A stretch of DNA of 64,000 nt from Bauldia litoralis (GTDB lineage: Bacteria; Pseudomonadota; Alphaproteobacteria; Rhizobiales; Kaistiaceae), in the NCBI RefSeq assembly GCF_900104485.1, contig NZ_FMXQ01000003.1, positions 1 through 64,000 of the forward strand, given 5' to 3'. The position numbers and the translations under genes were made by a program. Below, in pieces: positions 1,903-40,928 of the stretch (positions within the stretch are counted from its first letter, which is position 1; each line of letters begins with the position of its first letter). The notes beneath the pieces were generated by a model. It ran no database searches and was not told the DNA's origin. It worked only from the letters and a program-made list of their open reading frames with translations.

Positions 1903-2172
1903 TCAGCCTCCGTTCTGCCGCTGCAACGAACCGACACCAGAACGACCCGTCGCGCGAAGCCTCTCGAAGATCCGCCGCAGCAGGTAGCTCCGGCCAACTG
2001 ACACGACCGTGAAGGCCGCCCCGATCAGGAGGCTGTCGCCGAACGCGACCACCAGTCCGAAGAGTGGGAAGATGAGCAGCTGCGTCAGCACGGCGATTCC
2101 ATATCCTGCAAGAACGTTGGCGAGCGCCTCGACCAGCGACATCGCCGGGGAGTGCGTACCCGCGACGGCCAT
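1903..2172 (-). CDS. DUF7220-type small membrane protein
   Basis: An 89-residue protein beginning MAVAGTHSPAMSLVEALAN, then a hydrophobic hairpin (about residues 20-63, including YGIAVLTQLLIFPLFGLVV and a second helix) and an Arg-rich tail. The SLVEALANVLAGY-IFPLFG pattern matches the DUF7220 family of small phage/ICE membrane proteins as I recall it. It probably sits in the inner membrane; role unknown. It lies eight bases upstream of the methyltransferase gene and about 77 bases downstream of the DUF6362 gene, in the same leftward operon. Confidence 0.6.
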   Translation of the reverse strand: MAVAGTHSPAMSLVEALANVLAGYGIAVLTQLLIFPLFGLVVAFGDSLLIGAAFTVVSVGRSYLLRRIFERLRATGRSGVGSLQRQNGG

Positions 2173-2249: not shown

Positions 2250-2738
2250 TTACCAGACCTTGTCCTGACCTGCGGCCCGTGTCCCACCCGGAGATGTCTC
2301 ACACTGCCGGCTGGGCCATGACCGGCGCAGCATCGAGCGCAGCGACGGACGAGCCGCGGATGGGTGACCGTTCAGCCGCCATGCGATCAGCCCAAGCGCG
2401 TAGCGCCACCATCGATCCGCCGTCGGCCGACTGATGCCGAAGCGCCAGCAGATCGCCTTCCAGCTGGCGCCCTCGATCCGGGACACCACCAGTGCCGCCT
2501 CCTCCGGTTCAAGCCAATCAAGCCACGACAGCGCTTCGGTCGGATCGCTCGGTATGTCAGTACCCAGACTGTCGGCTCCGGCTGTCCCTATGCCCCCTAT
2601 GAGCCCTATGCTTCTGTCGTCCCGGCGCGGCGAGATGTGCACAGGATCGGAGAGCGTCCCGGTCTGCGACTTACCGGCCTGCAGCAGCACCGCATCCCGA
2701 AGGCGGGCCTCGACCACCCGCGGCGTCCACTCATCCAT
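2250..2738 (-). CDS. DUF6362-family protein with HTH-like C-terminus
   Basis: A 162-residue protein starting MDEWTPRVVEARLRDAVLL. Residues about 86-135 carry the pattern LSWLDWLEPEEAALVVSRIEG-WKAICWRFGISRPTADRWW, a helix-turn-helix-like segment typical of DUF6362, a family found beside phage-type replication genes in alphaproteobacteria. DNA binding is likely, but whether it is a regulator or a terminase-small-subunit-like protein is open. The start overlaps the stop of the TubC_N-like gene by eight bases. Its mid-region is encoded partly by three tandem CCCTATG units (2586-2610), read here as IGLIGGIG, which looks imposed by DNA rather than by protein function. Confidence 0.6.
   Translation of the reverse strand: MDEWTPRVVEARLRDAVLLQAGKSQTGTLSDPVHISPRRDDRSIGLIGGIGTAGADSLGTDIPSDPTEALSWLDWLEPEEAALVVSRIEGASWKAICWRFGISRPTADRWWRYALGLIAWRLNGHPSAARPSLRSMLRRSWPSRQCETSPGGTRAAGQDKVW
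2586..2610. repeat. Three 9-bp CCCTATGNN tandem units
   Basis: CCCTATG occurs at 2586, 2595 and 2604, exactly nine bases apart, inside the DUF6362 gene. The same unit recurs in four further clusters between 3105 and 3362. Resembles iterons or binding-site arrays. Confidence 0.6.
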
Positions 2739-3045
2739 CGCCGAGATGTCCTGTGGACCGACGCTCGCCGACTTCCTCCAGAGCGGCGGTTTCCGCTGCT
2801 GATCGCGCTAGTCCGCCGTCGTACTCCATGATCGCCGCCCGCTCGTCGAACGCGGCTTGCCAGTCATCCTCGGACCATTCCTCGCTCCGATGGAGGAAGG
2901 CTACGATGTCGGCCTTGTGCTTACTGAGAAGAGCCAGGAGGTCCGAGGCCGGCGGGGATGATGCCGTCAGCACGAGGCCGTCGCCGTCGACTGTCACCGC
3001 TACGCCGGCTCTTGCTGCCTCGCGGAAGATCTCGGCCGCGGTCAT
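2731..3045 (-). CDS. TubC_N-like docking-domain protein
   Basis: A 104-residue protein. The first 50 residues (MTAAEIFREAARAGVAVTVDG, then LLALLSKHKADIVAFL) match the TubC N-terminal docking fold, a short helix-strand domain that also occurs as stand-alone small proteins in alphaproteobacterial mobile elements. The remainder is acidic and probably flexible. It is chained by an ATGA overlap to the ATPase gene upstream and by an eight-base overlap to DUF6362 downstream, so it belongs to the replication operon. The molecular role in this setting is unknown. Confidence 0.55.
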   Translation of the reverse strand: MTAAEIFREAARAGVAVTVDGDGLVLTASSPPASDLLALLSKHKADIVAFLHRSEEWSEDDWQAAFDERAAIMEYDGGLARSAAETAALEEVGERRSTGHLGDG

Positions 3046-5105
3046 AGCCGCATGCTCCAGCCCTCGAACGGTTCGTCATCGGTTTCGTCGCGCGTCCCCG
3101 ATGGCATAGGGGGCATAGGGGGCATAGGCCCTTCGGGGCACGCGGCATCGGCCGGATTGGCGCAATCCTGCGATTGTCCGACAGTGGCGGGAGCAGCTTC
3201 CACCGACCCTATGCCGCCCCTATGCCCCCCATGATCATCGCGCACCGCGTCGGCATAGGGGGGTATGGCTCCCACGCCGCCCACATCGGAACTGCAGGGA
3301 GACCAAGGGTTTTCGTCTGGGGCACTCCACTCCTGGGCCCTATGCCCCCTATGACCCCTATGCCTTTCGGGACTGCCGGCATTTTCGGAGTTGGACATGA
3401 TGCCCGCGTCGTTCGCGCCACCTCGATCGTCCTTCTCGCCGGTTGCGGACGAATAGAGGTGATGGAGAGCCTTGGGACCACCAGGCTGGGGATCATCCTG
3501 ATTCCGCCCGTTGTCGTGACCTGGGGCCTTCTCCATCGCGAAGGTGGCGGAGCCCCACTTGCCGGCGGCGGCCGCCCGGGTCAGGACGAGCCCCGCCAGC
3601 CGCGTGCCGACCAGCTTGCCGAGTTGCGCCGCTACGAACTGGCGACCGCGACCGTGTGGATCGATGAGCTGGCGGACGCTGTCGTCGAGATCGCGGAGCG
3701 CGATTGGCCGGTCCTGGTGCCTCTCCCACCATGTGGTGAACAGCTCAGCCGTATTCAGGCGCCGCCCGTCCTGCGCCTTTGCTTCGGCAATGCGGGCCAC
3801 CGGGTCCATGCAGTCGAGGGCAAGCAGCGGATCGCGAACCCACTGGCACCAGGTCTCGAAGCTGCCAAGCGGGCGCCCCGATGGCAGGTCTTGGCCAAGC
3901 CGACCCCAGCGCCAGATCGTGAGGGCCGCAGCAAGCAGCCTTGTCCGGTCGCGCGTTACCTCCAGTCGGATATCGTTCGAGAACCGCCGAGCCTCGGGAT
4001 CTTCGGTCTTGGGGTCCAGCTCGATGGTGATGAACCGTCGCGCCAGGTCTTCCGATACGGTCAGGCCATTGCCGGTGAGGACGATCAATGCGGACGGATT
4101 GAGCGGGACCATCTGCGATCGCCCGAGGACGCGAACCCGGGCGGGGCGCTCCGTGATCGCGCTCGCCAGCAGGTCGGACCGGAAGGCCGTGTTGTTGAGA
4201 TTGTCCAGGAAGAGGACCGGGCTTCCCTCGATCAGTTCGGCGGTGATCCGCTTCTCCAACTCCTCGGCCTTGATCCCACCAGTGACCGCATGGGGTTCGC
4301 GTCCGAAGGCGATCATCGCGATACAGCGGGCAAGCAACCCCTTCCCGGCGCCGGCACCGGAGAGCGGCGCCGCCCGAAACAGGATGCCGGGGGCATGGTG
4401 GAGGCTGGGTCTGCAGACCGCGGTCAGAAGTGCGACGAGGAACGCCGACTCATCCTTGCCGGGCGGACGGCCGATATCGACGACCGCGATTCCGTCTTCT
4501 GTGACCAGGCAGGCATCGGCGAAGCAGAAGGTCCGGAAGGTATGCCGGATCAGACGAAGCGATGTCTCTGCGTCGCTTCGCGAGGGGTGCTCTGCAACAA
4601 GATGCCTCAAATCAGGCACCCGCTCGCGCCACATGCCCGAGGCGGGATCGTAGCCTTCAGCCGAGAGGATGGTGCCGTCTTCCTGGAGCAGTGGCGCAGA
4701 GGCAATGCCATTCAATGGGGGAAGCCGCCATTCGCCACGCCAGTCGAGATACATGACAGCGAAGGCGCGGGGCAGGCGAACGTCGACTTCAACGATGCTC
4801 CCGTCCTTCTTCTCCTTCAGGGCATAGGGTCGACAAACCCTGTGAACGAGGAGAACCAGAACATCCGGCGTGAGGATCTGCGCCACGACGCCGTGCTGAA
4901 TCTGGTCGCGAGCCAGGCGGACCGGCACACCGCGATCGAACAGACCACCGGCGCCAACAAGGATGTCGCGGAGTGCGGCCACGGTCCGGTCCGGCGCTGC
5001 ACTCTCAACGAACAGCCGCGGCTTGCCGCTGTCATCCGGCACCGCCTCGGCATTCTCGACGAGATCGCAGATCTGGGTTTCGCCATTCTGATGATCGGAA
5101 GTCAT
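3042..5105 (-). CDS. P-loop ATPase, phage/ICE replication helicase-like
   Basis: A 687-residue protein. Residues about 245-305 hold a nucleotide-binding core with Walker A-like GAGAGKG (250-256) and Walker B-like VLFLDNLNN near 300, then a sensor-type LIVLTGN. This resembles the ATPase/helicase partner of primases in phage-like elements. The last 150 residues are low complexity (HRGHRGHR, GGHRGGIG, PMPPMPPMP) and are encoded by clustered CCCTATG units. The gene lies directly after a CHC2/Toprim gene with an ATGA overlap, which supports a primase-helicase pair for element replication. Probably cytosolic; exact helicase class not assigned. Confidence 0.65.
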   Translation of the reverse strand: MTSDHQNGETQICDLVENAEAVPDDSGKPRLFVESAAPDRTVAALRDILVGAGGLFDRGVPVRLARDQIQHGVVAQILTPDVLVLLVHRVCRPYALKEKKDGSIVEVDVRLPRAFAVMYLDWRGEWRLPPLNGIASAPLLQEDGTILSAEGYDPASGMWRERVPDLRHLVAEHPSRSDAETSLRLIRHTFRTFCFADACLVTEDGIAVVDIGRPPGKDESAFLVALLTAVCRPSLHHAPGILFRAAPLSGAGAGKGLLARCIAMIAFGREPHAVTGGIKAEELEKRITAELIEGSPVLFLDNLNNTAFRSDLLASAITERPARVRVLGRSQMVPLNPSALIVLTGNGLTVSEDLARRFITIELDPKTEDPEARRFSNDIRLEVTRDRTRLLAAALTIWRWGRLGQDLPSGRPLGSFETWCQWVRDPLLALDCMDPVARIAEAKAQDGRRLNTAELFTTWWERHQDRPIALRDLDDSVRQLIDPHGRGRQFVAAQLGKLVGTRLAGLVLTRAAAAGKWGSATFAMEKAPGHDNGRNQDDPQPGGPKALHHLYSSATGEKDDRGGANDAGIMSNSENAGSPERHRGHRGHRAQEWSAPDENPWSPCSSDVGGVGAIPPYADAVRDDHGGHRGGIGSVEAAPATVGQSQDCANPADAACPEGPMPPMPPMPSGTRDETDDEPFEGWSMRL
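3105..3362. repeat. Four CCCTATG/CATAGGG clusters in alternating orientation
   Basis: Clusters on the plus strand: CATAGG at 3105, 3114, 3123 (9-bp step); CCCTATG at 3207 and 3218; CATAGGG at 3254 followed by GGTATGG; CCCTATG at 3338, 3347, 3356 (9-bp step). Orientation alternates from cluster to cluster. All lie in the 3' part of the ATPase gene and are read there in different frames. They could be iterons of an origin, protein-binding arrays or RNA-pairing segments. Confidence 0.6.
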
Positions 5106-5992
5106 GGCCGCTCCTCCAAACCGTCCGATCCGCCGACACCGAGAACATCGTTGAAGTCCATGCCGGCAGGCGCCCGGGCAATCCCGATATCGCGACCTTC
5201 GCGGCTCCAGCGCCTGGCTGCGTCTCGTGCTGCGGTCTCGCCCGGCGGATCGCCGTCGGCAAGGATGGCGACCTCGCGGATATCATCGGGAAGGACCAGT
5301 CCGCGGAGGCCCGAGGTCGACAGCGCCGCCCAGGCCGGACGACCGGTCGCCTGCATGGCGGCAAGGCAGGTCTCGATACCCTCGCCGACCATAAGCCGGT
5401 CAGTGCCGGTGCCGAGGCGGACCGCGCCGCCGCGACAGGGGCCGAGCATCATCTTCTGCGGCATGACCGGAGCCTTGCCCGATCCGTCCGGCGCGAGGAA
5501 CGTCCTGTGGATGCCGACGGGCGTGTCATCGGCGCCGCGTGTGACCAAGGCGACCATGGCCGGCCATCTGTCACCGGCGGGATGCTTCAGCGACGGGTGG
5601 AACCGAAGTGTCGGTGGCGTTTCGATCCGGAGGCCACGGGACGCAAGGTATGTCTCGACCAGCGTGCCCCCAGCCGGCCGGGCGGATGTCCAGATCGTCA
5701 TGGCGAGTTCGCCCCGCTTTCTAGAATCCGCGTCATTCGAACGCTGGACCGGTGTCGTCCGCGACCTCTGGAGCAACGGCCGATCGGTCGCTTCCCAGAG
5801 CCCCTTTTGCCGAAGCGCGGAGATAACCGCCTCCTGCGAACAGCCGGCGTGGCATCGGACCAGAACCCTGCCGTCGTCGCCGTCGCAGATCGCCAGGCTG
5901 GGCGATGTATCGTCATGAGCCGGGCAGCACGCCATCCACGTCCGCCCGGTGCGGCGTCCGCCAAGGGCCCGGGAAATGGCTGCGGCGTTCAT
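5102..5992 (-). CDS. CHC2 zinc-finger / Toprim primase-like protein
   Basis: A 296-residue protein. An N-terminal zinc-binding motif (CCPAHDD at 22-28 and CHAGC at 47-51) matches DnaG/CHC2-type primase fingers. A C-terminal Toprim domain shows the GEGIETCLAA glutamate motif and the VAILADGD aspartate motif. It should bind DNA and synthesise primers for replication of the integrated element, together with the ATPase encoded next. The ATG at 5992 is chosen because it overlaps the stop of the sigma-like gene by four bases; the frame extends to 6109 without a better start. Its own stop overlaps the ATPase start (ATGA). Confidence 0.8.
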   Translation of the reverse strand: MNAAAISRALGGRRTGRTWMACCPAHDDTSPSLAICDGDDGRVLVRCHAGCSQEAVISALRQKGLWEATDRPLLQRSRTTPVQRSNDADSRKRGELAMTIWTSARPAGGTLVETYLASRGLRIETPPTLRFHPSLKHPAGDRWPAMVALVTRGADDTPVGIHRTFLAPDGSGKAPVMPQKMMLGPCRGGAVRLGTGTDRLMVGEGIETCLAAMQATGRPAWAALSTSGLRGLVLPDDIREVAILADGDPPGETAARDAARRWSREGRDIGIARAPAGMDFNDVLGVGGSDGLEERP

Positions 5993-6966
5993 GACGCAAA
6001 CTCCCGCGCCTTGCGGGGTCTCGCGAACAGCGCAGGCCGAGAACGGGCGACGATCAGGTAGCTGTAGTCGCCGTCGCCGTGACGACGCTGCATGAGATAG
6101 GCGCGGCACGCTCCGACAGCCGACATCGCCGCCTTCGCGACACGGTCCAGCTCCCGTGCGTCCTCCTTCGGCAGGCGGCTGCCCAACGCCAGACGATCAA
6201 TGGCGAGTACACCACGGTGATATTCGAGGGTCTCGCCTCTATCAGCGCTGGCCAGCCAGACCGTCAGATCCAATTCTGTGACGAGCAGTTGCGGGTGGGG
6301 TCGTGGCAGATGGCTTGGCATTGGCATCGGCTCCGGTTCGGCGCCAATTGCCATGGGTAACGTGGCGCCCTGTTCGCCACATACCGGCGGTAGCGCCAAA
6401 CCGTCGGAAGAGGTCGGGGCGTAGATCCGGAGACCGGAGGCGGCGGCGGCGGCGCGAACCGCTCGTACGCGTTCACTGGCGGTCGAGCGGTGGATGCCCA
6501 GGTCCCGTGCTCCCGCACTGATGCTGCCTGCAAGAAGCACCCTGCAGCCATCAACAAGAGGTGCCGTAAGCCCTTCTACGAACCGACAGACATCGATATG
6601 GGCGGCCACGCTCTCGTCGATCGGAGGCGCCTCGTTCGGAAGCAGTTCCAGGAGCGTGGTCACGCTGCCGTCCTCGCCGACCGCCGGCGCATCAAGCGAC
6701 AGCAGCAGCCGTTCTTCACGCAGGCGTTCTGTCGGAGTTGTCAGGGTGGTCGCACGATGGGCGATCACCCTATCGGCGAAGGTCGCGAACGAAGCCCGAT
6801 CTCGATCGAACCATTGCGATCGTCGGACGAGGTCAGCAGCAAGGTCTTGCTCGTAGTCCTCGACAGTCATTCCCGGCACGGCCTCTTGCCGGGCCAGCTT
6901 GCGGGCGTTGAATCGGATGTTGTGAAAGACGCGGCCATCGAGGCCGCTTGTATTTGTCGTCTCCAT
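5989..6966 (-). CDS. Sigma-70-like / HTH protein heading the replication operon
   Basis: A 325-residue protein. Residues about 30-85 (VEDYEQDLAADLVRRSQWFDR, then FATFADRVIAHRAT) resemble region 2 of sigma-70-type factors found in phage-like elements. A helix-turn-helix follows around 155-175 (GARDLGIHRSTASERVRAV). The C-terminal part is unassigned. As first gene of the leftward operon it could act as an element-specific transcription factor or a replication initiator. The start ATG at 6966 follows a 190-base non-coding stretch that should hold the operon promoter. Confidence 0.55.
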   Translation of the reverse strand: METTNTSGLDGRVFHNIRFNARKLARQEAVPGMTVEDYEQDLAADLVRRSQWFDRDRASFATFADRVIAHRATTLTTPTERLREERLLLSLDAPAVGEDGSVTTLLELLPNEAPPIDESVAAHIDVCRFVEGLTAPLVDGCRVLLAGSISAGARDLGIHRSTASERVRAVRAAAAASGLRIYAPTSSDGLALPPVCGEQGATLPMAIGAEPEPMPMPSHLPRPHPQLLVTELDLTVWLASADRGETLEYHRGVLAIDRLALGSRLPKEDARELDRVAKAAMSAVGACRAYLMQRRHGDGDYSYLIVARSRPALFARPRKAREFAS

Positions 6967-9760: not shown

Positions 9761-10232
9761 GATCAACTACGCCAGCCACCCGGAGACGCCTTCGGTGCTC
9801 GCCCGCCTCGCCGCGTTGAAGACGATGCCCACACCGGAACTGAAGAGCCAGTGGCGGGATCTCTTCGAGACGGAGCCGCCGCCCTACAACAGGCGCTTCC
9901 TCGAAAGCCGGCTCGCCTATCGCATCCAGGAACTCGTCTACGGCGGGCTGAAGCCAGAGACCGTGAAGCGGTTAGAGGCCCTCGGCGAAGAACTCTACGG
10001 CAACAACGGCAGGCCGACACGGATGCGGGCCGATACCCACCGGCCCATCGCCGGAACCCGGCTGATCCGGGAATGGAACGGCGTAGACCACGTCGTCACT
10101 GTCCGGGCCGAGGACTTCGAGTATCAGGGACGGCCCTTCAAGAGCCTCTCAGCTGTTGCCCGCGCTATCACCGGGACGCGGTGGAACGGCTGGGTGTTTT
10201 TCGGGCTCAGGAACCAGCGGGGGCGGCCGTGA
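9750..10232 (+). CDS. DUF2924 domain-containing protein
   Basis: A 160-residue protein with the full DUF2924 pattern: LARLAALKTMPTPELKSQWRD, the PPPYNRRFLESRLAYRIQE segment, GTRLIREWNG, and the C-terminal FKSLSAVARAITGTRWNGW-FFGL. The family nearly always sits directly before a large serine recombinase and probably assists DNA binding or recombination directionality, though this is not proven. The start at 9750 overlaps the previous gene; the stop overlaps the recombinase GTG start by four bases (GTGA). Confidence 0.85.
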   Translation: MTIEINYASHPETPSVLARLAALKTMPTPELKSQWRDLFETEPPPYNRRFLESRLAYRIQELVYGGLKPETVKRLEALGEELYGNNGRPTRMRADTHRPIAGTRLIREWNGVDHVVTVRAEDFEYQGRPFKSLSAVARAITGTRWNGWVFFGLRNQRGRP

Positions 10233-11611
10233 ACGCTCCGGTTCGCAAACGGCAAAGTCCCCGACAAGGTGCGTCGACCGCCTCCGTCGTGGCCAAACGC
10301 AGATGCGCCGTCTACACCCGCAAGTCCTCCGAGGAAGGTCTCGACATGGCCTTCAACAGCCTCGACGCTCAGCGCGAGGCTTGCGAAGCCTACATCGCCA
10401 GCCAGAAGGCCGAAGGCTGGGTCCCGGTCCCCGACTGGTACGACGATGGCGGCGTCTCCGGCGGGACACTGGATCGTCCTGCCCTTCAACGCCTCCTCGC
10501 CGATATCGAGGCCGGCAAGGTCGACATCGTCGTTTGCTACAAGATCGACCGCCTCTCCCGGTCGCTTATGGACTTCTCCAGGTTGGTCGAGGTCTTCGAC
10601 CGGAACGAAGTCACATTCGTCTCGGTCACCCAGTCCTTCAACACCACGAACTCGATGGGGCGGCTTACTCTCAACATCCTGCTCTCCTTCGCCCAGTTCG
10701 AGCGGGAGGTGATTGGCGAGCGGATCAGGGACAAGTTCGCCGCTTCCCGCAAGAAGGGGATATGGATGGGTGGCTGGGCGCCCTATGGCTACGACATCAA
10801 GGACCGCAGGCTCATCGTCAACGAGAACGAAGCAAGCCAGGTCCGACAGATGTTCGAACAAATGGCGAAGGGCGGCTCTGTCACCAAGATCGTTCGCGAA
10901 CTCACAGCGAACGGCATCGTCAACAAGTATGGAAAGCGCTTCGACAAGGGGAAGATCTACAAGCTGCTCAACAACCGGGTCTACATCGGAGACGCCGTTC
11001 ACAAGGGCACGGCCCATCCAGGGGAGCACGACGCTATCATCCCGCAGGTGCTCTGGGACAAGGTCCATGCCGCCATGGCCGAGAACGCCCGCACCCGGGC
11101 AAACCGAACCCGTGCCCAAACGCCTGCCGTCCTCAAGGGTCTCATCTTCGACGCCGCGGGTCGGGCAATGTCGCCGACCCACACCCGCAAGCGACAGCGG
11201 CTTTACCGGTACTATGTCAGCCAGTCGTTGATCCGGGGCAGACGGACCGAAGGGAGCGACGATACCCCCGAGAACGCTGCGCCTGTCATTGGCCGGGTTC
11301 CGGCGGGCGATGTCGAGGCGGCGGTCGTTGACCAGCTCCGCATCCTGCTCAGACAACCGGAGATCGTCGTCGCCACCTGGCGCGAGGCGCAGATCGAAGC
11401 CGCCGATCTCACCGAAGCGCGAGTCCGGGAAGTCCTGCACGAGTTCGATGCCCTATGGGACGAGCTCTTCCCTACTGAGCAAGTTCGCATCGTCCGGCTT
11501 CTCGTTGACCGAGTCGACGTTCGTCGCGACGGCGTCGACATCACGCTCCGCAAGAGCGGGCTGGTCAGGCTGATTGGTGAGCTTGGACTCAGCCAGCAAG
11601 AGGCCGCGTGA
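10229..11611 (+). CDS. Large serine recombinase (integrase/excisionase)
   Basis: A 460-residue site-specific recombinase of the resolvase/invertase family. The N-terminal catalytic domain starts with CAVYTRKSSEEG (nucleophile Ser about residue 33) and contains YKIDRLSRSLMDFSRL and FAQFEREVIGERIRDK. A recombinase domain follows (PYGYDIKDRRL, then GGSVTKIVRELTANGI and YIGDAVHKG). The usual zinc ribbon is degenerate, lacking the cysteines (LIFDAAGRAMSPTHTRKRQR). It should integrate and excise the element between attP and attB. The GTG start overlaps the DUF2924 stop; no better in-frame start exists near the domain. Its orientation toward 12084 places the attachment junction just downstream. Confidence 0.9.
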   Translation: MNAPVRKRQSPRQGASTASVVAKRRCAVYTRKSSEEGLDMAFNSLDAQREACEAYIASQKAEGWVPVPDWYDDGGVSGGTLDRPALQRLLADIEAGKVDIVVCYKIDRLSRSLMDFSRLVEVFDRNEVTFVSVTQSFNTTNSMGRLTLNILLSFAQFEREVIGERIRDKFAASRKKGIWMGGWAPYGYDIKDRRLIVNENEASQVRQMFEQMAKGGSVTKIVRELTANGIVNKYGKRFDKGKIYKLLNNRVYIGDAVHKGTAHPGEHDAIIPQVLWDKVHAAMAENARTRANRTRAQTPAVLKGLIFDAAGRAMSPTHTRKRQRLYRYYVSQSLIRGRRTEGSDDTPENAAPVIGRVPAGDVEAAVVDQLRILLRQPEIVVATWREAQIEAADLTEARVREVLHEFDALWDELFPTEQVRIVRLLVDRVDVRRDGVDITLRKSGLVRLIGELGLSQQEAA

Positions 11612-37222: not shown

Positions 37223-37679
37223 TGCAGGCCGCCGTTGACCTGGGACATCGACGACAGGTGGGCACTGGAGCTGGTCGGCAGGCGCTGGCATCGGCCCGGG
37301 AACTTGGTGCTCCCGAACGCGACGGTTAAATCGCCCGTATCTGCACGTTCCCTGCAAGTTGATCCGGGCCGGTCGATATGGAGCCTCTCCGCAGGGACCG
37401 CTACCCGAACACCCTGAGTGGCGCGACAAAAGCGTTCTTACCGTCAAGGAATCTGGGTAGCTTCCCTCGCAAGAAAAGGATGCGTCATTCGTCAGGGACA
37501 GCGCTTGATCGGCGTTCGAGATCATTGCGCCGTGACGGCTGCAGGTTCGGAAGAACACACCTTGCCCTACTCCATACGGGGTATTGTGAGCGCTGCGCCG
37601 AGAGTTGCATTATTCGCGGCGATTAGGCCACTGGCCATATCCCGTCGCATTTTGTGGCGCCAAGGTTGAGGCACCGACC
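37223..37679. other. Non-coding or decayed stretch before the RTX gene
   Basis: 457 bases. The first 40 continue the integrase remnant in a shifted frame. The rest shows no supportable gene, repeat or RNA. The promoter of the RTX gene should lie near the right end. Confidence 0.4.
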
Positions 37680-40600
37680 ATGCCCGATGGGCCGATTGTC
37701 ACGATCGACTTCAGTAACAGTTCTGAAGCCATCGACATGGGCACCTTCGATGAACAGGTCGGCATGTTCAGCGGGTGGATCCCATCGTCGCTCAACTACC
37801 ACGGCCAACCCCTTACGTATCAGTGGTACGAAGAACTGCCCGATGGATCTGTAATCATCGCACAGGGAATAGTCCTCTCGGCAGGTCCGGTCTATTTTCC
37901 GCCTGAGTCAGCAGACTGGTACGATCTGCCGAGTACGACGAAATACCCGGTCTTCATCGGCACCAATGACGATGTTTTCTATTTGATCGGCAACCTTCCC
38001 GAGCTTCCTAACATTACGGACTATGTAAGCGGCATCTACGGCAACCACGAAGCTGCAGCTGAAGCTTTGACCGCACTATTCGAGGCGATCGTTGACTGGC
38101 AGGACGCTGTCATTGCTTCGCCGATCGCCGCAATCCGATACACCGATGACGAAACAGGCCTCGATCTTCGGATTTCGTCATCCGTCCAAACGACGGCTGG
38201 CGGCTTCATCACGGCGGTCGACGGGGACATTCTGGAATTCGAAATCGCGCCGGAGTTTCTATTATACGAGACCGTCAAGGTGAAGGGGACCGACTACGAC
38301 GACACGCTTCAGGGATGGGAGAACCTCAGTCCGATTACCCTCGACGGACATGGCGGCGACAGCGACCTCCTTACAAACCCGGAGGATCATGGCGGCGTCA
38401 CCGTCAATCTGGGCACGACCGCCTACAGCTTCAGTCAGCCTGAGTCGATCTTCGGAGCCACCGTCCCGCCATCGCAGGTCGCTGCATCAACTTTCATCGA
38501 CACCTACGGGTCGACCAATACCGTCTTGAACATCGAGAATGTCGAGGGCACTGCCAGTTCCGGCGACGTGCTGATCGGTGGTGCCGGTGGTGGTCTGCTT
38601 TGGGGCCTCGGCGGCGAGGATGTTCTCGCCTCCGGCGGCGGTGACACCGAGATGCATGGCGGCGACGACAACGACGTCCTTATCGGCTCCACCGGCAAGG
38701 ACACGATGTTCGGGGGTGAGGACGACGATACGCTGATTGGAGGCGGTGGCGACGACGATCTTTCTGGCGGAAAGGGAAGCGACAAATTCACCGGCATCGG
38801 ACTGTTCAGCTTCGACCCTGAAACCGGCGCTAATCTAATCGACGGTGGCGACCTTAGCGACTTCGTTGACCCGTCGACGACAGACACCGTGGCGTATGGC
38901 GGGTCTGCGGCGTCATATACAATCAAGGTGCTCCTTTCGTACGAAGGCAGCGGTGGTTTTGGATTTCGGGTAACCAGTGGCGCGGGCTCGGACACGGTCA
39001 TCAACACCGATGAGCTGGTCTTCACCGATGCCGTCATCAAGGAATCGAGGTTAGCCGAGAAGGGGGTAGCCGCCTTCGCGATTTGGGCGCTTGGCGACGC
39101 GTTCGAAGCAGTCCGCGACTATGTCGGGAAGCTCGGCCAGTTCGAGGATGAAGGGGGAAATCCCAAGTTTGGAAAAATATTGAAGTGGTTCGATATCGTC
39201 GATCAGTCCGTAGCCGGGCTTGGCCAAGCGTTCCTCGTAGACGATCAGAAAATCGCAGCCAAGATCCTCGCCGCACATACGGTCAGCGCCTTGACCGACC
39301 CGATCATCGACGAAGCGGCAGACCTGATGCGGGCACACGTCGAATCGCTCAATCTGCCGAGTGAGCTCGAAGACCAAGCGCTGGCCAAAATCGATGCTGG
39401 CGCCGACGATCTCGCCTCCGCAGTGAAACTTGCGACCGTGAAGGTGGTTGATGCAGCAATCGACGCGGCTGCCGACATCGCCGAGGTCGACTGGGCCGCC
39501 ACCTGGCAAGGTTGGATGGATGCGGTGCTCGACGAGTCTGACAAAGTCTACAAAGCCGATCCCGGCCTACAAGATCCGAAGGAAAATTTCGACAATCCGA
39601 ATCTGCCAACGGAAATCGATGAGCCCGGGCCCGTCATCCAACCTCTCGGCGGCCTACCGGCGAACGGCACCGATGGCGCCGACATATTAATCGGGAGCGC
39701 TGGCAACGATGTCCTCTATGCCAAGGCCGGAGACGACCTAGCGTTTGGCGGAGGCGGCGATGACACGCTCGTCGCCGGGTCTGGCCATGGTGACGACACC
39801 TATGACGGGGGCACCGGAACCGATACGCTCGTTTATACCAGCACGAAGTTCGGCGTGACGGTCAATCTTGCTACCGGCGTCGCCAACGGCAGCGAAATCG
39901 ATCAGGATCGCATCTTTTCTGTCGAGAACGTGGAGGGGGGCTCCGGCAACGATACCCTGATCGGCGATAGCGCCAGGAACATCTTGAGCGGTGGCGGGGG
40001 AAATGACTTACTGTTCGGCGCAGCGAATAACGACACGCTTGACGGAGGCACCGGCGCTGACCAGATGCGCGGCGGGGCCGGGAATGACACATTCATTGTC
40101 GACAACACGGGCGACCGGGCGATCGAGGGCGCCGGATTGGGGACGGACACCGTCAAGTCCAGCGTCTCTTTCGTCCTCGGGTCGAATGTCGAGTACCTGA
40201 CGCTCCTTGAGCCGGGCGCCATCGCCGCCGCTTCGGCGAACATCAACGCCACCGGCAACAGCCTCGCCAACACGCTGACCGGCAATTCGGGCAACAACAT
40301 CCTCGACGGCAAGGCCGGCGCCGATACGATGAGCGGAAAGGCCGGCGACGACACCTACATCGTCGACAACACAGGCGACAAGGTGATCGAGGGCGCGGGA
40401 CAGGGCACCGATTCCGTCAGGAGCAGCATCGCCTATACCTTGGGTGCGAATCTTGAGAAGCTGGTGCTGACCGGCGCCGGGGCAATTAACGGCACCGGAA
40501 ACAGCGTCGCCAACACGCTGGTCGGTAACGCGGGAAAGAACACGCTTAACGGCGGCGGCGCGTCTGACATCCTCTCCGGCGGGCCAGGCAAGGACAAGCT

Positions 40601-40928
40601 GCTCGGCAAGGCCGGCAAGGACGCCTTCGTGTTCGCCGATGCGCTGTCCAAGGCTAACGTCGACCAATTGAAGGATTTCAAGCACAAGAAGGACAAGATC
40701 CTGCTCGACGCGGACATTTTCACCGCGGTCGGGGTGAAGGTCAGCAAGAAGGAGTTCGTCGAGGGCAAGAAGGCCGGCGACGGCAACGACTACCTGATCC
40801 GCAATAAGAACAAGATCTTCTACGACCACGATGGCAAGGGCGGCGACAAGCAGGTGCTCTTCGCCAAGATTAACAAGAATGTCGACCTCGACCACAAGGA
40901 CTTCATGGTCGACGACTTCGTGATCTGA
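37680..40928 (+). CDS. RTX-type calcium-binding protein, probable type I secretion substrate
   Basis: A 1082-residue acidic protein. Residues about 1-290 are a mixed domain of unknown fold. A first RTX block spans about 297-372 (GGDDNDVLIG, GGEDDDTLIGGGGDDDLSGG). A helical, alanine-rich segment covers about 455-650. A second RTX block covers about 662-1000 (GSAGNDVLYA, GGGGDDTLVAG, GGAGNDTFIVDNTGD repeated as KAGDDTYIVDNTGD). A serralysin-like C-terminal end follows (DQLKDFKHKKDKILLD, FMVDDFVI). No N-terminal signal peptide; the C-terminus suits type I export. No ABC exporter is adjacent. ATG 37680 is the first plausible start. Confidence 0.85.
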   Translation: MPDGPIVTIDFSNSSEAIDMGTFDEQVGMFSGWIPSSLNYHGQPLTYQWYEELPDGSVIIAQGIVLSAGPVYFPPESADWYDLPSTTKYPVFIGTNDDVFYLIGNLPELPNITDYVSGIYGNHEAAAEALTALFEAIVDWQDAVIASPIAAIRYTDDETGLDLRISSSVQTTAGGFITAVDGDILEFEIAPEFLLYETVKVKGTDYDDTLQGWENLSPITLDGHGGDSDLLTNPEDHGGVTVNLGTTAYSFSQPESIFGATVPPSQVAASTFIDTYGSTNTVLNIENVEGTASSGDVLIGGAGGGLLWGLGGEDVLASGGGDTEMHGGDDNDVLIGSTGKDTMFGGEDDDTLIGGGGDDDLSGGKGSDKFTGIGLFSFDPETGANLIDGGDLSDFVDPSTTDTVAYGGSAASYTIKVLLSYEGSGGFGFRVTSGAGSDTVINTDELVFTDAVIKESRLAEKGVAAFAIWALGDAFEAVRDYVGKLGQFEDEGGNPKFGKILKWFDIVDQSVAGLGQAFLVDDQKIAAKILAAHTVSALTDPIIDEAADLMRAHVESLNLPSELEDQALAKIDAGADDLASAVKLATVKVVDAAIDAAADIAEVDWAATWQGWMDAVLDESDKVYKADPGLQDPKENFDNPNLPTEIDEPGPVIQPLGGLPANGTDGADILIGSAGNDVLYAKAGDDLAFGGGGDDTLVAGSGHGDDTYDGGTGTDTLVYTSTKFGVTVNLATGVANGSEIDQDRIFSVENVEGGSGNDTLIGDSARNILSGGGGNDLLFGAANNDTLDGGTGADQMRGGAGNDTFIVDNTGDRAIEGAGLGTDTVKSSVSFVLGSNVEYLTLLEPGAIAAASANINATGNSLANTLTGNSGNNILDGKAGADTMSGKAGDDTYIVDNTGDKVIEGAGQGTDSVRSSIAYTLGANLEKLVLTGAGAINGTGNSVANTLVGNAGKNTLNGGGASDILSGGPGKDKLLGKAGKDAFVFADALSKANVDQLKDFKHKKDKILLDADIFTAVGVKVSKKEFVEGKKAGDGNDYLIRNKNKIFYDHDGKGGDKQVLFAKINKNVDLDHKDFMVDDFVI

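Follow-up and report, generated by a model that had tools for sequence, protein, structure and literature searches.

The window analysed here is the first 64,000 nt of contig NZ_FMXQ01000003.1 from Bauldia litoralis, and it begins with a minus-strand operon that contains a putative initiator ATPase/helicase of the SF3/D5-like type (3042 to 5105, minus strand; PHROG 29234, 10537 and 19930). Its C-terminal winged-helix domain, the predicted reader of the repeats described below, is encoded at 3528 to 3767 (minus strand; residues 447-526) and is followed by a low-complexity coding tail (3045 to 3524, minus strand) that carries an array of the word CCCTATG. The first gene of the operon encodes a sigma-like protein (5989 to 6966, minus strand), a Toprim/DUF7146 primase-like gene (5102 to 6109, minus strand) lies directly upstream of the ATPase gene, and a small TubC_N-like gene (2731 to 3045, minus strand; homologues at loci L045 and L076) separates the ATPase gene from a DUF6362 gene (2250 to 2738, minus strand) whose product has a weak helix-turn-helix (HTH) match.

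CCCTATG occurs 15 times in the window against an expected 2.7, a count reached by none of 100 shuffles, and 11 of these words fall within 2586 to 3362 in five clusters with the orientations +++, --, ++, - and +++. In particular, the DUF6362 gene contains cluster 1 (2586 to 2610, plus strand; words at 2586, 2595 and 2604), and the ATPase tail contains cluster 2 (3105 to 3129, minus strand; exact words at 3105 and 3114 and the one-mismatch unit CATAGGC at 3123), cluster 3 (3207 to 3233, plus strand; exact words at 3207 and 3218, 11 bp apart, and CCCCATG at 3227), a single iteron (3254 to 3260, minus strand) and cluster 5 (3338 to 3362, plus strand; words at 3338, 3347 and 3356); a third one-mismatch copy, CCCGATG, lies at 3097. 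The spacing is exactly 9 bp in clusters 1, 2 and 5. With one mismatch allowed, the array holds 14 units per 950 bp; other 950-bp stretches of the window average 1.1 and never exceed 4. A first-pass annotation of this DNA had reported the five clusters, their coordinates, the 9-bp spacing of three of them and the alternating orientation, all of which were confirmed by word counts and positions. It had also asked whether the unit is equally common genome-wide. The single word is unremarkable in this respect, since it occurs 342 times in 5.09 Mb (about once per 15 kb); the double unit CCCTATGNNCCCTATG, however, has five matches in the genome, all at this locus, and its backwards control has none.

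The same annotation was right that one DNA unit is read in different protein frames. Within the ATPase tail, the words occupy four frame and orientation combinations (forward in frame 0 once and in frame 2 twice, reversed in frame 0 four times and in frame 2 once), and the resulting peptides are HRGHRGHR (cluster 5), PPYAD (single iteron), GGHRGGIG (cluster 3) and PMPPMPPMP (cluster 2); the words in the DUF6362 gene are translated as IGLIGGIG. When the codons of the tail were resampled synonymously (2000 draws), the mean number of words was 0.88 and the maximum was 5, compared to the 8 observed. Across seven coding tails of CCCTATG elements, 3 to 9 exact words were present against resampling means of 0.1 to 1.6, and the observed number was never reached in 2000 draws each. 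Amino acid repeats that persist while the DNA unit is lost had been named as the outcome that would overturn a nucleic-acid role; the opposite was found, with the words retained against synonymous recoding.

A scan for the triple word returned 64 stretches from 84,980 species genomes and 14 from viral contigs. Nine of these loci contain a homologue of the ATPase (47-74% identity over tblastn segments; L010, L019, L029, L047, L049, L062, L064, L072 and L076), and all nine have CCCTATG clusters at, in or just after the 3′ end of the ATPase gene. Homologues collected by protein profile, where the word was not used, have the same clusters (L098, L102/L130 and L103/L131); a profile was needed, as a single-sequence search of viral sequences with the ATPase gave no match. 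The relatives' words are translated as HRGHRGHR, HREHREHRE, PYDPYAPYA, PMTPMTPMP or PMPPMPPM. Moreover, the array follows the ATPase stop codon as non-coding DNA in L029, L049 and L098, and the spacings in L064 include 8, 10 and 11 bp, so that no protein repeat is formed in one frame. DUF6362 was tried as a marker gene and discarded: a strong array is absent from the majority of DUF6362 loci in the class, and DUF6362 is therefore not the common denominator. DUF6362 itself had one plasmid match and no phage match. Repeats of other kinds were also noticed. In a Lentisphaeria metagenome-assembled genome (MAG), CALZPA01, CCCTATGNN recurs in tandem arrays of 3-10 units on many contigs; these arrays show no link to the ATPase and are a dispersed repeat family (L006, L009, L017, L023, L025, L028, L039, L040, L050, L055, L056 and L059), and two viral contigs (L071 at 3908 and L079 at 3327) have three copies of CATAGGGCT followed by a long tandem array of GGGATAGA near an HTH gene.

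At greater distances, the place of the array and its alternating layout are retained while the word is changed. Most homologues found by protein sequence have alternating repeats of about 9 bp directly 3′ of the winged helix, either within the coding sequence of the tail, by overprinting, or in non-coding DNA that follows the stop codon, and the words are element-specific, with more than 20 different ones seen overall. For example, the 3′ end of the ATPase gene carries ACATTCAC 13 times in L167, ACGTCCAC 12 times in L170, ACCTCCCC 8-10 times in L179 and L180, CGTTCCCC 9-10 times in L169 and L181, ATGGTGAC 12 times in L184 and CGAAGAC 12 times in L185; in L175, CCTATGCA occurs 8 times in the non-coding DNA after the ATPase stop. 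A second element in the window's own genome (L172; G000 contig 22, about 34.8-37.8 kb) encodes the Toprim protein and the ATPase as a fusion and has its own word, ACCCTCAC, 10 times at the 3′ end of the ATPase gene. As a control, 8-mers were counted in 544 windows taken from these loci, and none exceeded 4 copies. Two-letter words and short clusters escape such a scan; in several loci that appeared empty in it, reading by eye, which carries no statistic, showed short inverted clusters flanking a spacer just after the ATPase stop, namely in L173, L174, L176, L177, L178, L186 and the plasmids pMNOD06 and pMt-1. An Azospirillum prophage (L302) has three copies of AACCCACT facing three others, and a circular Streptomyces cyaneofuscatus plasmid (L306) has ACTACCCG 11 times in the gap between the ATPase gene and parA, so that iteron clusters occupy this place on three autonomous plasmids. 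A G-quadruplex reading was rejected because relatives' words such as ATGGTGAC and TAGCGTCA have no G-runs.

Opposed sets of words around a spacer are seen in L302, L176, L177, L186 and L185. In L185 (2010 to 2354), units of CGAAGACC face each other after the ATPase gene, and a second array of CCGGTGTC, 10 copies in one orientation, lies about 0.9 kb downstream. The spacer between opposed clusters (L302, L176, L177 and L299) often contains CTGTCA...TGACA-like motifs (AAACTGTCAGAA ... TGACATTT), which could possibly be a second conserved origin element.

A profile of a sister group of the ATPase (A2) detected 189 relatives in viral contigs, and 80 of these were retained; 77 of the 78 phage loci with enough tail have 5-14 word copies in the roughly 340 bp that follow the winged helix, and the matched upstream region never has more than 4. 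The remaining locus reflects a domain-boundary artefact; when its contig was refetched (L339), it did not fall among the array-less loci. In most cases a conserved C-terminal peptide, PxWLKEVL or PDWLRELDP, comes after the array. This first collection contains 18 words; a second, from two further scans whose contigs partly overlap the first, has the array in 115 of 115 loci.

The word and the winged helix of the ATPase change together across these elements. Among 42 non-redundant phage homologues (below 93% identity, 257 variable columns), the column best coupled to each of the five variable bases lies in the winged helix, with normalised mutual information of 0.51-0.85 compared to at most 0.22-0.38 for the ATPase core. 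In particular, bases 2, 3 and 4 couple with residues 393, 389 and 385, in steps of four along the recognition helix, and bases 5 and 7 couple with residue 421 and residues 419-420 of the wing, respectively. On a tree built without the winged helix, base 7 changed 12 times and was concordant in 7 of 7 independent pairs; concordance was 5 of 5 for base 2 (G), 5 of 5 for base 3 (A), 3 of 5 for base 5 and 2 of 4 for base 3 (C). No test gave a discordant pair, as the remaining base 5 and base 3 (C) pairs do not differ. The residue classes for these pairs were chosen after seeing the data, and a held-out test therefore carries more weight. Applied to 23 additional elements that share less than 97% identity with the training set, rules fixed beforehand predicted base 7 in 19 of 19 cases (baseline 5) and base 2 in 15 of 16 (baseline 4); base 5 was predicted in 16 of 16, uninformatively, as its baseline is also 16. 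Two of the four tested rules are thus far above baseline. This covariation in the sister group argues that the winged helix probably binds the word.

The predicted structure is consistent with such a role. In an AlphaFold2 model of the ATPase (m7e4bbdf069db, mean predicted local distance difference test score (pLDDT) 80), the C-terminal winged helix consists of helices 447-463, 475-481 and 488-498 and strands 506-511 and 521-526, with local pLDDT mostly 73-91, and it ends immediately before the array. Foldseek matches in the PDB with E <= 1e-3 are NrS-1 CTR (PrimPol; 6lrb), SaPI PriRep1 (7pds), AsfvPrimPol and the poxvirus protein MPXV E5; the SaPI5 primase-helicase (7ola) follows at E 1.4e-3, and SV40 large T is also among the fold matches. 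All of these are initiator or replicative helicases. Their TM-scores are low (0.2-0.4), and the assignment is therefore made at the level of the family, resting on match probability and on the consistency of the family. At that level, the model indicates an SF3/D5-type initiator helicase fold for the ATPase, with a winged helix at its C-terminus.

Overall, an iteron array lies directly at the 3′ end of a helicase gene, and we assign a probability of roughly 0.88 to the reading that the CCCTATG clusters are replication-origin iterons belonging to the neighbouring ATPase gene. We conclude that the array and the ATPase form a rep-ori module of the SaPI and pWTY27 kind, in which the initiator gene itself carries the overprinted origin; the precedents of SaPI, SCCmec and pWTY27, together with the fold and the array evidence, make this the best supported interpretation. 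By analogy with them, this copy would be active as an origin. The ATPase's winged helix would bind words of about 9 bp arranged in opposed clusters of about three, its recognition helix contacting the left half of the word and its wing the right half. Once bound, the helicase would be loaded and the DNA separating the clusters would open, so that the element's Toprim primase could start copying. In this lineage the initiator gene would carry the origin overprinted in its 3′ coding tail, with an extension into the DUF6362 gene, whose cluster may take part; the peptide repeats HRGHRGHR, PMPPMPPMP and IGLIGGIG would therefore be by-products of DNA sites. The earlier proposal of a nucleic-acid role as replication iterons thus gains from the recoding test, the non-coding arrays and the changes of word at a fixed architecture, and further from the winged-helix covariation, the SaPI/NrS-1 fold match and the proven iterons at the same place in a distant homologue.

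Several results weigh against this interpretation. The window ATPase is only about 27% identical to pWTY27 RepA and about 30% identical to the sister group in which covariation was found; within the CCCTATG clade the word barely varies, and the code was derived in the sister group only. The held-out rule for position 3 failed in a divergent group, with 14 of 20 correct, equal to baseline, and 6 of 20 wrong. The window shows no obvious AT-rich unwinding element, and its GC content is 59-70% over 2500 to 3450; opposed clusters are present, and no AT-rich spacer stands out between them. Distant homologues in the large lytic phages RpAliso, RcXuper and phiCbK, in phage TPWB-08 and on a Cereibacter plasmid have no array after the gene, so the array is not universal in the superfamily. 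Lastly, a Bauldia MAG (L045; 3250 to 3340 and 3780 to 3950) has its syntenic ATPase replaced by an unrelated one whose tail carries iterons of its own (word TAGCGTCA, 9-bp unit TAGCGTCAC, both orientations), and its DUF6362 gene nonetheless retains three copies of CATAGGG at the place corresponding to cluster 1, which the origin reading does not explain. The locus appears to be a natural initiator-origin swap with a leftover cluster.

This leftover cluster bears on who reads the words. The first-pass annotation had proposed the Toprim, sigma-like or DUF6362 proteins, and the presence of cluster 1 inside the DUF6362 gene, its retention in L045 and the weak HTH match are what a DUF6362 or sigma-like reader would have in its favour. 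However, CCCTATG elements L010, L029, L047 and L049 have no DUF6362 homologue in the fetched stretch, the identity of the word follows the residues of the ATPase winged helix, and in L045 a new ATPase brings a new word in its own tail; another reader is accordingly improbable and the ATPase itself is likelier. Somewhat less improbable, though still unlikely, is that the same protein binds the words for control, as an operator, a copy-number handcuffing site or a partition site, and that the true origin lies elsewhere. Iterons often double as control sites. The clusters extend across about 780 bp and reach into the next gene, there is a ParB-N/methyltransferase gene nearby, and the L306 array lies between the ATPase gene and parA; against this, adjacent iteron DNA belongs to the minimal replicon of pWTY27, in SaPI and SCCmec the origin, proven or proposed, lies just 3′ of the helicase gene, and no second array was noticed in the window.

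The two remaining explanations dispense with a protein reader. Action in RNA, through mRNA hairpins or pairing of opposed clusters, had also been raised earlier, and the tail RNA does fold somewhat better than its shuffles (z = -2.4). Pairing is indeed possible, but any inverted array pairs and this value does not discriminate; moreover, arrays also occur in non-coding DNA after the stop codon, the distances between opposed clusters vary widely, and coupling of single bases to winged-helix residues is unexpected for an RNA element and is not explained by pairing, which makes such a role very unlikely. Least credible is a 9-bp microsatellite or a selected amino acid repeat with no DNA-binding role. 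The triple word does occur as plain tandem repeats in unrelated genomes, and a pattern scan gave many of these, but the alternating multi-cluster form was concentrated in ATPase loci; the alternating orientation, the frame-breaking spacings of L064, the retention of words against synonymous change, their same place in distant homologues, the concerted change of all copies and the held-out prediction of words from protein sequence all disfavour it.

The origin module belongs to a larger element. Downstream in the same operon lies DUF7220 (1903 to 2172, minus strand), and the element also includes the ParB-N/N6-N4 methyltransferase fusion (560 to 1894, start approximate, minus strand). At 9.7-11.6 kb there is a DUF2924 gene, together with a gene for a large serine recombinase, the element's integrase (9851 to 11611, plus strand; phrog_95 integrase, with resolvase and recombinase domains). 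The gene content beyond 12 kb resembles host metabolism and regulation. A 1107-aa protein with RTX calcium-binding nonapeptide repeats in 8 stretches is encoded at 37605 to 40928. The contig begins at window position 1, and the other end of the element is therefore missing. Among phage contigs with relatives of the module, 6 of 8 tested carry a GpA-type terminase, and the Azospirillum lipoferum prophage (L302) has a terminase downstream; these genes suggest that the relatives are complete phages rather than satellites.

More broadly, it is fairly probable that temperate alphaproteobacterial phages and related plasmids form a large class with a self-contained rep-ori cassette, in which the origin is overprinted in the initiator tail, the winged helix and the word co-diverge through a readable residue-to-base code, and the words define compatibility groups. 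Several elements could then coexist in one cell, and this genome holds two (CCCTATG and ACCCTCAC). If so, the origins of many unannotated temperate phages and plasmids could be located, and their words partly predicted, from the initiator protein sequence alone, and odd triplet peptide repeats at the C-termini of primase-helicases would be traces of DNA sites and not protein features. The family would also offer a natural experiment, with dozens of initiator-iteron pairs, for the study of winged-helix recognition and incompatibility.

No description of this initiator-array family was found in the open-access literature, which is weak evidence of absence as subscription journals lay outside the coverage, and known systems share separate parts of it. 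The closest is plasmid pWTY27 of Streptomyces sp. Y27, whose RepA is a homologue of the window ATPase and is adjoined by a primase gene. Its basic replicon consists of RepA, the primase RepB and the adjacent iteron DNA, with the array needed for replication; RepA binds this array specifically in electrophoretic mobility-shift and footprinting assays, the footprinted stretch is 405-509, and the authors suggested that RepA recognises a stem-loop (PMC3583192). In the fetched sequence, 405-509 coincides with iteron pairs that face each other across a spacer, and the short words GTGGGAAC/TTCCCAC lie in both orientations directly 3′ of repA. In contrast to the window, the pWTY27 array is non-coding, the host is an actinomycete and the primase is a separate prim-pol type; further, the covariation seen here favours recognition of the word itself over the stem-loop proposed there. 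The SaPI rep-ori and SCCmec Cch2 have initiator helicases of the same fold class (7pds and 7ola): SaPI Rep uses its C-terminal domain to recognise iterons that follow rep directly, and Cch2 binds and unwinds the DNA that comes just after its own gene (PMC7581432). These systems are staphylococcal, with a non-coding origin, other words and about 10% identity in the fold alignment. The pRN1 family of Sulfolobus plasmids also combines an SF3 helicase bearing a C-terminal winged helix with an origin immediately downstream of the replication gene, but that origin lacks iterons, being a 100-bp stem-loop, and the primase in the protein is of the archaeal type (PMC4234260). In phage lambda, as proposed for the ATPase gene, the iterons that the initiator binds lie within its own gene (O); lambda O, however, is not a helicase, and its four 19-bp iterons lie mid-gene, after which lambda P and DnaB are recruited (PMC3985674). 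The protein encoded here is predicted to be an SF3-like ATPase and not a lambda O homologue. Overprinting as such is thus already known from lambda; what is new relative to all these precedents is an origin overprinted in the coding tail and a readable, changing pairing of initiator and word across many phage elements.

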